This document shows, in pieces, positions 1 through 34,324 of a stretch of DNA of 34,324 bases. Made by a program: the position numbers and the translations under genes. Below the pieces are notes generated by a model. It did not search any database. It was given only the letters and a program-made list of their open reading frames with translations, and had not been told where the DNA came from. Numbering within the stretch: the first letter of the stretch is position 1; each line of letters begins with the position of its first letter. Source of the stretch: Baffinella frigidus (Eukaryota; Cryptophyceae; Cryptomonadales; Baffinellaceae); NCBI GenBank assembly GCA_026770585.1, contig MU646348.1, positions 1,114,778 to 1,149,101 on the forward strand, given 5' to 3'.

Positions 1-206
1 TGCAGCGCCATGGTTCTCAAGGGTTGTCGATGATTCTTAAGGGTTGGCGATGGTTGCCCAGGGTTATCGATGGTTCTCAGGGGTTCATTTTTGGTTGAAG
101 TTCTGCCATCCGAACCCCTGGTGGGTGCATCCGATCAGTCCGTTTCCTCGACTTTTGCATCATGCACAATATTATTCCTTTCCCTGATATGATGCACCAA
201 CCCCTT

Positions 207-250
<44 letters not shown>

Positions 251-560
251 CCTCTCCCTCTCCCTCTCTCTCTCTCTCTCTCAGCACAGACAGGATGGTC
301 GACAGCGGCCAGGCGCCGCTGTGATTTCTCGTTGAAGTTCTTCCATCCAAACCCCTGCAGGACGATGGTTCCCAAGGGTTATAGATGGTTTTCAGGGGTT
401 ATCGATGGTTTCTAAGGGCTATCGATGGTTGCCAAGAGTTCCTGATGGCTGCACGGGTTCGTGTTTCGTTGAAGTTCTTCCATCCTTTTTGTGCGGGTGC
501 AAACCCTAGAAAAGCCGCTGTCGGTTTTCGTTGAGGTTTTTCCATCCAACCTGACAATGT
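1..560. repeat. Exon-edge copies of the 354-292 exon plus GATGGTT minisatellite
   Basis: Truncated copies of the acceptor side of the 354-292 exon (core GTTGAAGTTCTTCCATCC on the plus strand) occur at about 82-118, 467-488 and 520-560. Around them lies a degenerate repeat of about 20 bp with the core ATCGATGGTTCTCAGGGGTT at 1-95 and 362-450. Only the 292-354 copy keeps a long open frame. Confidence 0.6.
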
Positions 561-2442
561 CTTTCAAATTTTCTGGCATAAATCATAGCCAGAATTTCGA
601 CCATAACTCGAAATCCTTTTCGAAGCCCACAGTGTGGATGATGATAGGACTAACCGCCCCTACAGTACTGCCTACCGTATGGACGGTACTCTTTACCGTA
701 GGGTCCTATAGACGATCTACGTAGGGGTGTTCCGCAAAATCACCTCGCATCCTTATCTCAGATAAACACTTTTAAAAGTCGTTTTCCTAAGTCAACTCCC
801 CCACAAATCTGTCAACTTATGCTTTACTCTGCGAACCCGTACGCATAAGTCGCCGGATTTGTGGGGGAGTTGACTTAGGAAAACGACTTTTAAAAGTGTT
901 TATCTGAGATAAATCCCGGTGTGTGGAAAGGCGTACCTTGAACCACGAGAGCATGCAGCACCCTTGCCGCACGTCCCGCAGCGTCGGCGTCAGGGATCTG
1001 TTTAGGATTTAGGGGTTAGGGTTTAGGGTTTGGGGTTTGGGGTTTAGGGTTTATGGTCTAGGGTTTAGGATCTAGGGGTAAGGATTCAGAAACCCCAATC
1101 AGAGACAAGCAGCAGCTGCTGCTGACTGCAGCTGTTACTGACGTCAGTCTCTGGGTCGGCACCGTCAGTCACCCTTGCCGCACGTCCCGCAGCGTCGGAG
1201 TCGGCGAACTGCTTAGGGTTCAGGGTGTAGGGTTTAGGGTGTAGGGTGTAGGGTGTAGGGTGTAGGGTTTAGGGTTTGGGGTATAGGGTTTAGGGTTCAG
1301 GGTTTAGGGTTTAGGGTTAAGGATTTCGGGTTTAGGGTTTAGGGTTTATGGTTTAGTGTTTAGGGTTTAGGGTTTGGGGTTTAGAAGCCCCAAACAGAGC
1401 CGAACAGCACCGTCAAGTCTCTGGGCCTTTCGGTGCCTGGTCAAAGATTTTTTGTTTGACCAGGCTAGGCCCACATGAGCAGCAGCAGTGCCGCATTCCC
1501 GCTACATTTTCTTTTCCGCTCAAAAGTTGACGCTCTTTTCCGCTCCAAAGTTGACGAATGTGTACCGCAAACCCGGCATGTCAACTTGAGAATAGTCTGA
1601 CAGTCAACCCGACTGAGGCAGAGCTAGAACTCGGGGGGTGGGGGGGTGGGGGGGGCACATGTCGTCGGTGAGGAGGGGACCGCACACTCATTTAGTACCA
1701 CAAAACGAAACGTCGCGTTCTGAAATTCCCACACTTGACCTGGCGTGGCTAGGGGCGGGGCGGGGACTTTATCCGGGGAAACCTATTTTTCTTGAGTTTG
1801 ATGGCAAGGAAAATTACTACATAAATGCTTTAATATTACTAATAAAAACGAATTGTGTAGTAATTTTCCTTGCCATCAAACTAAAGAAAAATAGGTTTCC
1901 CCGGATAAGACTGCATGTCGTCGGTGAGGACAAGTCGGAGAAGGCGGGGAGCGGGGGTAGGGGCTAGGCACTGTGGGATAGGGGTTAGGGGCTAGGCGTT
2001 CGGGGTGAGGGGGGTGGACCGCATGTCGTCAGTGAGACCTCACCAGGCGGAAATGGAGGAAGCTCACAACGGGGTTTGGTCCGCTTCGGAGGGCTAGTGG
2101 ACCGTATTAGTTTGCGAAGCGTCTAGCCCTGAAACTCCTGAAGCGGATCAAATTGCCTCTACGCTCCAAAAAAGTCTAAAAGGGGGGTACGAAATAAAAA
2201 AAGGGGGTGATGTAGAGGCGATTTGATCCGCTTCAGGTCCAAAAACAGGAGTCAGGGCTGGACGCTTCCGTAACGAGTATGGCAATTAGGTGAGGGGGGT
2301 GGACCGCATGTCGTCGGTGAGGCCTCACCAGGCGGAAATCGAGGAAGCTCACATCGGGGTTTGGTCCGCTTCGGAGGGCTAGTGGACCGTATGGCAACTA
2401 GGTGCGGGGGGTGGACCGCATGTCGTACTGAAGGCCAGAGGG

Positions 2443-2480
<38 letters not shown>

Positions 2481-3829
2481 GAAGGCGGCAGGGGAGGAGC
2501 GAGACGGAGAGAGAGACAGACAGTGTCCACCCTTACACTAACTCGGGGCGGGACGGGCACCGCATGTCATCGGTTTGGTCCACTTCGGAGGGCTAGGGGA
2601 CCGTATGGCAACTAGGTGTGGGGGATGTCGTACTGAAGGCCGTCGGATCCCGACGACCTCCGGTGCAAATCAAGGGACTCGAAAAGATAATTTGCTCCCA
2701 CTCTGAGGGCTCGTGGAGGGCACCGCATGTCGTCAGTGAGGCCGCGTATCAGGAATCGCCAGTCCTGCTCTGTCTTGAGCAGCTCCTGGTGCAGGGTTGT
2801 AGGTTCAGTGTTTAGGTCGTAGGGTTTAGGGTCCAGGATTTAGGGTTTAGAGTTCAGGGTTCAGGGTTCAGTCCTGCTCTTTCTGGAGAAACTCCTGATT
2901 CAGGGCTGTGGGTGCGGGGTTCAGGGACCAGGGTTTAGAGTTTACATTTTAGAGTTTAGAGTATAGGCTTCAGTTCTGCATCATGGTCGAAGCCTGCAAG
3001 GGACCACCGCAGGAACCCGAAAGACATCGGTCAACCCAGACAGGTCCACGCGAGCACGCGGATGGTGCATGTTCCTGAGATTATGGGGCCACAATTTCCG
3101 CATGTACATTATAGAGCGACATTCGCACCCTCTCTCTCTTTCCTCTCTCTCTCACACACCCACTCTCTCTGTCTGTAACCCCCCCGTGGCGGTCCGTTAT
3201 GTTGTGGGAGTCGATACACCTGAAAGGAGCAAAATGATGGCGCATGCTCCTGGCCCAGGATCAATCTGTTCAAGAGTTGTGACGCGTGCCATGACGCGTC
3301 TCTCGCGTACGGGGTACCACCACCTTCTACCTCTGTCCGCGTAAAATTGGGCTCGCCGTCGATGTACTTAGGGGCACTGTTACCCCAGGTTCAATGGTCT
3401 CAATGGTTTGTATGGCCCGCCCAGTTTTACTCAGGCAGAGCTAGACCTTGGGACGAAGCGCTTCATATTCAAGGGGCGTCCATCTGAAGGATTTCCGGTA
3501 CAACCCCCCGGCATTTATGGTACAACCCCCCGGCATTTTTTTCGGTACAACCCCCCGGCATTTTAAGTACTCAACACCTGCAACGCCACGCGAAATCTGA
3601 GATACAATCTGAGACAGGTGTCGGTACTAAATCTGAGATAGGTGCCGGGACTAACCTTGGGTACGAATCGCTTCATGTTGGTGCACATCATGAGGAGGCC
3701 CCCCTCGTCCTCCCCCGACGCAAGGAAGAACCCTGCGAACTCCTCACGTTGCATCCTGCGGTGCCCCGGTTACGTTAGCCCGCGAGTTCTCTCCCCCCCT
3801 CTCTCCCTCTCTCTCTCTGTCTCTGTCTC

Positions 3830-3878
<49 letters not shown>

Positions 3879-33802: not shown

Positions 33803-33819
33803 GTAAGGGCGGACGACCT

Positions 33820-33910
33820 ACTGGAATTCCTGTACGACTAATGGAATTCCGGACGCCTAATGGAATTCCTAATGGGATTCCTAGCATTCTACCGTAGGAA
33901 TTAGGCGTGT
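33820..33910. repeat. CTAATGGAATTCC repeats
   Basis: GAATTCCTGTACGACTAATG, GAATTCCGGACGCCTAATGG and GAATTCCTAATGGGATTCCT form short tandem units ending in TACCGTAGGAATTAGGCGTG, an inverted closing arm. Confidence 0.7.
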
Positions 33911-34042
33911 GGCCGTACCGAGGTGCCACCACGCAAAAGTTTTTCTGAGTGCCTAACCCGAGCCTGGACCGATTTCGGCTGTGGTCGAAAGTCCGTTTCG
34001 GATTTCTGGATTGCAGCCGCGCTCTACCGCACCGAAGTATTC

Positions 34043-34164
34043 CAGCGTTGCCTGAGTTTTATTCTGGCTCGTCCTAAAGGCTTTACATTTCGCCCTGTTG
34101 TACTGGATTTCTGCTCGTAAATACTTTTTAAGGACGAGCCAGAATAAAACTCAGACGGAGCTAG
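34043..34164. mobile_element. MITE family F copy with 6-bp duplication GTATTC
   Basis: Arms TTGCCTGAGTTTTATTCTGG and CCAGAATAAAACTCAGACGG; ends CAGC and CTAG; flanked by GTATTC at 34037-34042 and 34165-34170. It lies in a donor-edge copy of coiled-coil exon 5 (CCGCGCTCTACCGCACCGAA). Confidence 0.85.
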
Positions 34165-34215
34165 GTATTCGGGGAGAGGCGTGCCGCTGGACCGCGCAGG
34201 AAACTGCGGCGATTT

Positions 34216-34324
34216 ATGGTACAGGGTGCAGGGTTCAGGGTGCAGGGTTCAGGGTGCAGGGTTCAGGGTGCAGGGTTCAGAGTTCAGAGTTCAGGGTGCA
34301 GGGTGCAGGGTTCAGGGTGCAGGG
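34216..34324. repeat. GGGTGCA/GGGTTCA heptamer array at the right edge
   Basis: GGGTGCAGGGTTCA 14-mers (two alternating heptamers) run to the end of the window. Confidence 0.95.

Follow-up and report, generated by a model that had tools for sequence, protein, structure and literature searches.

Truncated copies of exon edges in the introns of a Baffinella frigidus genomic stretch

Genes of the window and copies of their exon edges

We analysed a 34,324-nt stretch of the cryptophyte Baffinella frigidus genome (assembly GCA_026770585.1, contig MU646348.1, positions 1,114,778 to 1,149,101; hereafter the window), in which exon–intron junctions recur, each with a truncated piece of its exon, inside the adjoining introns. 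The window looks eukaryotic in sequence: GC is ~55%, degenerate arrays of the TTTAGGG type are numerous, and there are microsatellites (TC and CA) and gaps (726 N). The best-supported gene, gene A, lies on the minus strand and was built from splice sites; the phases of its seven exons (A1–A7) match, giving a single open frame of 484 codons that requires none of the edge copies. Its A3–A5 stretch matched Pfam DUF1647 with 31.0 bits (cut-off 25.7) when the query contained the complete exon 4 and lacked exons 1 and 2, whereas an earlier, incomplete query had stayed below the cut-off with 14.5 bits. The three other queries in the successful Pfam run gave no match, and no relative of gene A with a solved structure was found by sequence. 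The second recognisable gene, in which zinc fingers were detected, is presumably BuGZ-like and has two introns of 129 and 130 nt; the third is a WD40 gene. Exons outside these three genes were read from reading frames and splice sites only. Seventeen of the 18 donor sites read in the window are GT, the exception being the GC donor of gene A exon 3 at 18402; for dinoflagellates, by contrast, five of the seven columns of a published table give 23.6–36.6% GT (PMC10666404).

Each exon edge was represented by a query that reached 60 nt from the junction into the exon and 60 nt into the intron, and matches had to cross that junction. The scan was ungapped, with simple repeats masked, and covered ±2.5 kb for 33 edges and ±1.5 kb for three more. 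The threshold for each edge was the second highest score of 100 Markov shuffles, from which ~0.7 false edges in 36 are expected, and the reverse strand served as control. Same-strand copies on the intron side were clear at 21 of the 36 edges, doubtful at two (354 and 33802) and absent at 13. The reverse strand rose above the null at two edges, barely (A5 donor, 10.0 vs 9.5; A6 donor, 9.5 vs 9.0), and tied with it at one (donor 2723, 9.5). An initial annotation had listed 17 edges as copied into the adjacent intron, and 15 of them were supported, namely acceptors 18547, 16531, 15683, 13446, 11141, 997, 25560, 26801 and 33722 and donors 20571, 15521, 17278, 4729, 30447 and 30007. Its edges 33802 (10.5 vs 9.5) and 354, where the better copy is on the exon side, were not. 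The scan added acceptors 17359, 12451, 2785 and 4845 and donors 13327 and 2723. By locus, clear edges number 11 of 15 in gene A (counting edge 12451, near an N gap), both edges of exon 2724–2785, both of exon 4729–4845 and six of nine others (eight of these nine taken from the initial annotation). Copies were absent at all five edges of the BuGZ-like gene, all three of a gene at 31.7 kb, the donors of A1, A3 and A5, the acceptor of A2 and donor 25627.

Within gene A (all coordinates on the minus strand), the donor edge of exon A1 (21454..22209, from ATG to donor) and the acceptor edge of A2 (20571..20670) are uncopied, and the intron stretch 19753..20560 repeats the A2 donor edge, with copy junctions at 20427, 20038 and 19828. 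Upstream of A3 (18402..18547) lies an array of six copies of its acceptor edge (18636..19716; junctions 18690, 18841, 18984, 19125, 19335 and 19478), mostly 141–151 nt apart and accompanied by heptad arrays at 18696–18728 and 19484–19665. Exon A4 (17278..17359) has acceptor copies at 17458 and 17691 and a donor copy at 17118 (17098–17159), and A5 (16445..16531) has one acceptor copy (16738–16774), separated from the intact edge by a heptad array at 16570–16731. Copies of both edges accompany A6 (15521..15683; acceptor copies 15832, 16042 and 16247, donor copies 15189, 15015 and 14872) and A7 (13327..13446; acceptor copies 13628 and 13796, and a donor copy at 13059 that has lost the donor dinucleotide). 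Two copies of a further acceptor edge lie at 12410..12586 (junctions 12451 and 12577), the intact exon of which is probably inside an N gap. The exon at 10985..11141, probably the last of gene A, has acceptor copies at 11233, 11340 and 11454 with short heptad arrays between them. Four gene A introns hold copies of both kinds, those of donors at 7–37% and those of acceptors at 54–96% of the intron length.

The final, hand-made tally comprises 21 families with 40 copies, designated below by exon or position with a for acceptor and d for donor. Left out were 20135 and 20317 (A2d), 13072 (A9a), 16997 (A6d), 25071 (25560a), 33634 (33722a), everything at 354 and 33802, and the WD40 cross-family matches (30006 and 29869 for 30447; 30306 and 30446 for 30007). 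Copies are spaced 92–395 nt apart (median 163 nt), with up to six of one edge, and mostly contain 14–67 nt of exon; the longest, at the A6 donor, has 98 nt by a gapped comparison. Their identity to the intact edge is mostly 0.75–0.92, and they also differ among themselves. Exon-side matches were found at 117 for edge 354, at 16997 for A6d (a short match located in a different intron) and, in the case of edge 30007, in the other WD40 exon and that exon's copy. In a self-comparison of this one window, edge copies matched only within their own locus, and the distant matches came mostly from palindromic elements and heptad arrays. Identity showed no consistent gradient with distance: the nearest copy is the most similar in A2d and A6d, but not in A3a, A6a, A7a and A9a.

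Telomere-like arrays at exon edges

Telomere-like heptad arrays nearly touch acceptor edges or their copies at 1000–1077, 11151–11548, 16267–16437, 18696–18728, 19484–19665 and 26646–26796. Their units vary (TTTAGGG, GGGTTTC, GGGTTTG and CCTCAAC). In gene A, 8 of 11 arrays lie at most 20 nt from a junction or copy where 2.7 are expected (P = 0.0008); limits of 6, 10, 15 and 40 nt gave P values of 0.076, 0.013, 0.009 and 0.008, with arrays inside amplified units not being independent of each other. The arrays nearest the acceptors or copies at 997, 1208, 11141, 11233, 11340, 11454, 16247, 18690, 19478 and 26801 read as C-rich in the sense strand, an orientation that is only suggestive, these arrays amounting to about five families; the opposite orientation occurs next to A5a (16570–16731) and the A4a copies.

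We compared the two flanks of 22 arrays, taken from a hand-made list, with 300 shuffles. Six arrays are flanked by direct repeats of 20–58 nt that were unequalled in the shuffles; by our reading all six lie at exon edges, three of them in one family (A9a). Two further arrays reached P values of 0.013 and 0.020. The clearest case is the array at 26646–26796 on the plus strand, 151 bp of CCTCAAC-type DNA upstream of acceptor 26801, which adjoins a duplicate of the edge with a gap of 0 on both sides; the duplicated edge is 20 nt long, GCAG followed by 16 nt of exon, GTTTGAYGACTCCCGG. By scan score this edge is weak (12.5 vs 11.0), but the 20-nt flank repeat has a single mismatch. Flanking is nearly exact at 11151–11189 (gaps of 0 and 1) and at 2793–2871 (gaps of 4 and 0). 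A staggered break that was filled in and joined with telomere-type DNA would give the footprint seen at 26646–26796.

Similarity of the intron flanks beyond 10 nt from the junction was tested in 19 families, excluding 4845a and 2723d; in 2785a the copy had been placed 3 nt off (2897 for 2894). At least one copy showed such similarity in nine families (A3a, A6a, A8a, A9a, 997a, 2785a, 33722a, A2d and A7d), whereas at P = 0.05 it was absent from A4a, A5a, A7a, 25560a, 26801a, A4d (P = 0.053), A6d, 4729d, 30447d and 30007d. The latter families fit break filler better than plain tandem duplication, although fast turnover of intron sequence would look identical.

Origin of the copies

In our view the copies probably descend from local tandem duplications that straddled an exon–intron junction, with some edges having been duplicated by break repair; amplification and decay would have followed. 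Local tandem duplication across edges, by which introns grow according to the initial annotation, is well supported by the direct orientation of the copies, their proximity, the shared cut points of some families and the arrays. The exon part of the copies ends 35 nt from the edge in three of three A6a copies, and at 53–55 nt in four and 33 nt in two of the six A3a copies; because cut point and spacing are common to the copies of such families, a founding duplication appears to have been followed by amplification. A tandem duplication of part of an exon with the adjoining intron leaves one complete and one truncated exon. Because selection would keep the coding exon whole, it is the truncated copy that would come to lie in the intron, on the upstream side of an acceptor and on the downstream side of a donor, other outcomes presumably having been removed by selection on coding sequence. 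Some founding duplications would have been amplified into arrays, the copies of which would then drift neutrally. In a few places, repair of a staggered double-strand break at the edge is the probable cause: filling in of the overhangs would have duplicated the edge, and telomere-like heptad DNA would have come to lie between the two copies. Sense-strand CCCTAAA or CCTCAAC heptads look like a branch point and a pyrimidine tract, and this may be why they are tolerated beside an acceptor.

It follows that the strict polarity noted initially, which we found as intron-side copies at 21 of 36 edges, indicates a local origin and says little about mechanism, because geometry alone forces the truncated copy to the intron side. 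The claim that copies lie "always" on that side fails at edge 354, unless the intact exon there was misread: a weak intron-side copy at 553 (8.0 vs 7.5) is accompanied by a better exon-side copy at 117 (21.5). One GFGW-like exon start occurs there in four copies (78–117, 324–354, 455–485 and 514–549), any of which might be the intact one, so that the polarity at this edge is ambiguous. The suggested end repair finds support in a few places, the best being the array at 26646–26796.

Are edges preferred at all? After masking simple repeats and excluding palindromes we counted 13 local repeat families in gene A, nine of which cross an exon edge where random placement predicts 3.5 (P about 0.001). 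The other four are an acceptor pair near an N gap, A4 exon sequence and two intronic stretches adjoining edge arrays. A somewhat unlikely alternative is that local tandem duplications arise everywhere and that those containing exon sequence simply stay recognisable for longer, the exon being conserved; we admit this visibility bias, which comes from the slow change of exons. Repeats occupy 3458 of the 7981 unmasked intron bases of gene A, so that some edges would be met by chance, and short repeats exist away from known edges (34 bp at 31787–31855; 20 bp at 5692–5730). A circular-shift test over 14 edges, moreover, gave P values of just 0.01–0.07: 9 edges were crossed when at least 3 nt had to lie on each side (P = 0.010), 8 edges with a minimum of 5 nt (P = 0.037) and 7 edges with a minimum of 8 nt (P = 0.072). 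Against this alternative speak the family-level test and the intron parts of the repeat units, which are still recognisable in many copies, yet no family in gene A is clear of both exon sequence and edge arrays. Were the introns ancestrally short, as we infer and as the two of 129 and 130 nt in the BuGZ-like gene still are, duplications near the 163-nt median could not fit inside them and would have to cross an edge, which would explain the pattern without breaks being attracted to edges. We regard as doubtful the bolder proposal that exon–intron junctions are breakage hot spots, that edge-duplicating repair with telomere-type DNA is the main engine of intron growth, and that CCCTAAA-type filler survives as branch point and pyrimidine tract and is now part of the splicing signal.

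The remaining explanations concern what the copies are. That they serve as decoy, alternative or recursive splice sites is very unlikely. Of the 23 acceptor copies 22 retain AG (P = 0.046), but just 9 of the 12 donor rows retain GT (P = 0.81); constraint on the splice dinucleotides is thus borderline at acceptors and absent at donors, and use of the copies in splicing is not supported. In gene A (A9 excluded, every distinct change scored a single time), the differences that separate copies from intact exon edges fall on codon positions 1:2:3 as 14:12:37, which rejects equal rates (P = 1e-4) and fits the 1:1:2 expected for a drifting copy compared with a coding exon (P = 0.36). Changes found in some copies only are likewise biased to the third position (11:8:26, P = 0.0005), as are those private to one copy (10:7:18, P = 0.016). 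The coding constraint on the copies that this suggests was discarded: outside CpG the private changes are distributed 6:6:9 (P = 0.17), and 26 of the 35 are C-to-T or G-to-A. The codon bias can be put down to mutation bias together with changes that the intact lineage underwent from one duplication to the next, and from their sequence the copies look to be decaying neutrally. Less probable still is that some copies are not edge fragments but entire exons that have decayed, or repeats of the protein. The idea draws on the WD40 gene, two exons of which match each other and where a block of 223 aligned positions, intron included, is repeated with 79% identity; however, this concerns two of the 21 edges, and the gene A repeats cover part of each exon, starting from its edge. 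We judge it highly improbable that the introns owe their existence to an exon segment duplicated in tandem (the AGGT model) or to an insertion into a staggered break within an exon. Exon copies are indeed present in the introns, but these routes predict that the 5′ end of an intron repeats the start of the downstream exon, or that its 3′ end repeats the end of the upstream one, and none of six gene A introns showed this; none of 12 comparisons exceeded the 95% null, and the copies adjoin their own exon. An assembly artefact, finally, is hardly credible. The N gaps leave part of the window unresolved, but the copies differ at many positions from the intact edge and from one another, and the differences follow the codon frame.

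Several results weigh against the duplication reading as a whole. No copy was found at 4 of 15 gene A edges, nor at any of the eight tested edges of two other genes, and edge 354 has its exon-side copy. The edge preference weakens with a minimum of 5 or 8 nt to either side of the junction. About half of the tested families lack intron similarity beyond 10 nt, an absence not expected of plain tandem duplication unless the introns changed fast. Break repair draws on few cases, with 14 of 22 arrays having no significant flank repeat and one array alone being flanked exactly.

Long introns are usually explained by transposable elements. Here, part of the long-intron DNA can be traced to the introns' own exon edges, so that the sequence itself records how growth proceeded; the pattern shows one way in which introns become long, and the telomere-like arrays at duplicated edges point to break repair.

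The initial annotation knew of no name for such a pattern, but related processes do have names. Boundary-crossing tandem duplication is described for potato RdRp, where a single young duplication across an intron–exon boundary made a new intron and a piece of exon, with RNA reads and relatives as proof (Ma et al. 2016, PMC4974935). The likeness is a direct tandem duplication that spans the acceptor edge with its splice signals, and junction-spanning copies were found here at 21 of 36 edges; unlike in potato, the events are many and old, form arrays, involve acceptor and donor edges, and leave the coding frame running through the intact exons alone. In new Daphnia introns, direct repeats have been proposed as traces of staggered breaks, with passive lengthening of the intron (Li et al. 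2014, PMC4202315). Both systems have direct repeats inside introns, but ours mostly hold 14–67 nt of exon and lie beside that same exon, in arrays. What differs from these two cases is, in this one window, the scale: most edges of one gene are involved, an edge has as many as six copies, spacings are 92–395 nt, introns are affected at both ends, and telomere-like arrays accompany the edges. In the open-licence papers that we consulted on the pattern, we met no account of arrays of edge copies.

Interstitial telomeric repeats at double-strand breaks offer a parallel for the array at 26646–26796. Among horse telomeric insertions, 3 of 66 are described with the same footprint, an insert directly flanked by a target duplication (Santagostino et al. 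2020, PMC7215372); our arrays differ in being degenerate heptads, in having an exon edge as the duplicated target and in offering no empty site for comparison. AGGT tandem-duplication intron gain (PMC3443670; Drosophila cases, PMC2891723) shares the duplication of exon sequence into an intron, but as described it places the copy at the opposite intron end, the reverse of the placement here. Introners, as reported for dinoflagellates (PMC10666404), likewise tie repetitive DNA to introns, but are elements spread across many introns, whereas within our window each family belongs to one exon edge.

Other loci and repeated elements

The heptad array at 2793–2871 lies between an acceptor edge and its copy at 2894, and its flank repeat led us to an exon absent from the initial annotation (2724..2785, minus strand), read from its frame only as ELLKTEQDWRFLIRGLTDDM. 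Both of its edges then showed copies on the expected side, those of the donor lying at 2560, 2416, 2304, 2019 and 1911. A 95-nt direct repeat in the same region (2013–2107 and 2298–2392, 96% identity) includes copies of donor edge 2723 and is the youngest long local duplication that we saw. Exon 4729..4845 (minus strand) has a donor copy at 4549–4611 and an acceptor copy at 5240 (5226–5344). Acceptor edge 997 and its copy (959..1210, minus strand; copy 1170–1210) enclose the heptad array 1000–1077. On the plus strand, acceptor edge 25560 with its copy at 25265–25310 spans 25265..25602, and acceptor edge 26801 with its flanked array spans 26626..26816. Acceptor edge 33722 (33330..33802, plus strand) has short copies at 33354 and 33634, the second of which has lost its AG, and at donor 33802 there is only a 19-bp repeat just inside the intron.

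The WD40 exons ending at 30447 and 30007 (29863..30518, minus strand) have donor-edge copies at 30306 and 29869 and also match each other, as WD repeats would. The block 29863–30078 repeats 30300–30518 and holds a truncated edge copy, intron and an exon end; judging from this arrangement, the edge duplication in this gene may be older than the exon duplication.

Near-palindromic elements of ~60–190 bp, belonging to several families and some of them multi-copy, occur within introns and between genes (753–912, 1769–1908, 8756–8878, 10395–10515, 14545–14695, 18074–18229, 21277–21418, 24889–25031, 26147–26296 and 33432–33574). A 24-nt end of one element had no exact match in viral or bacterial/archaeal contigs, a search from which records near the window were possibly left out. 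In sequence the elements look like miniature transposons, and two of them (1769–1909 and 21278–21418) are 89% identical.

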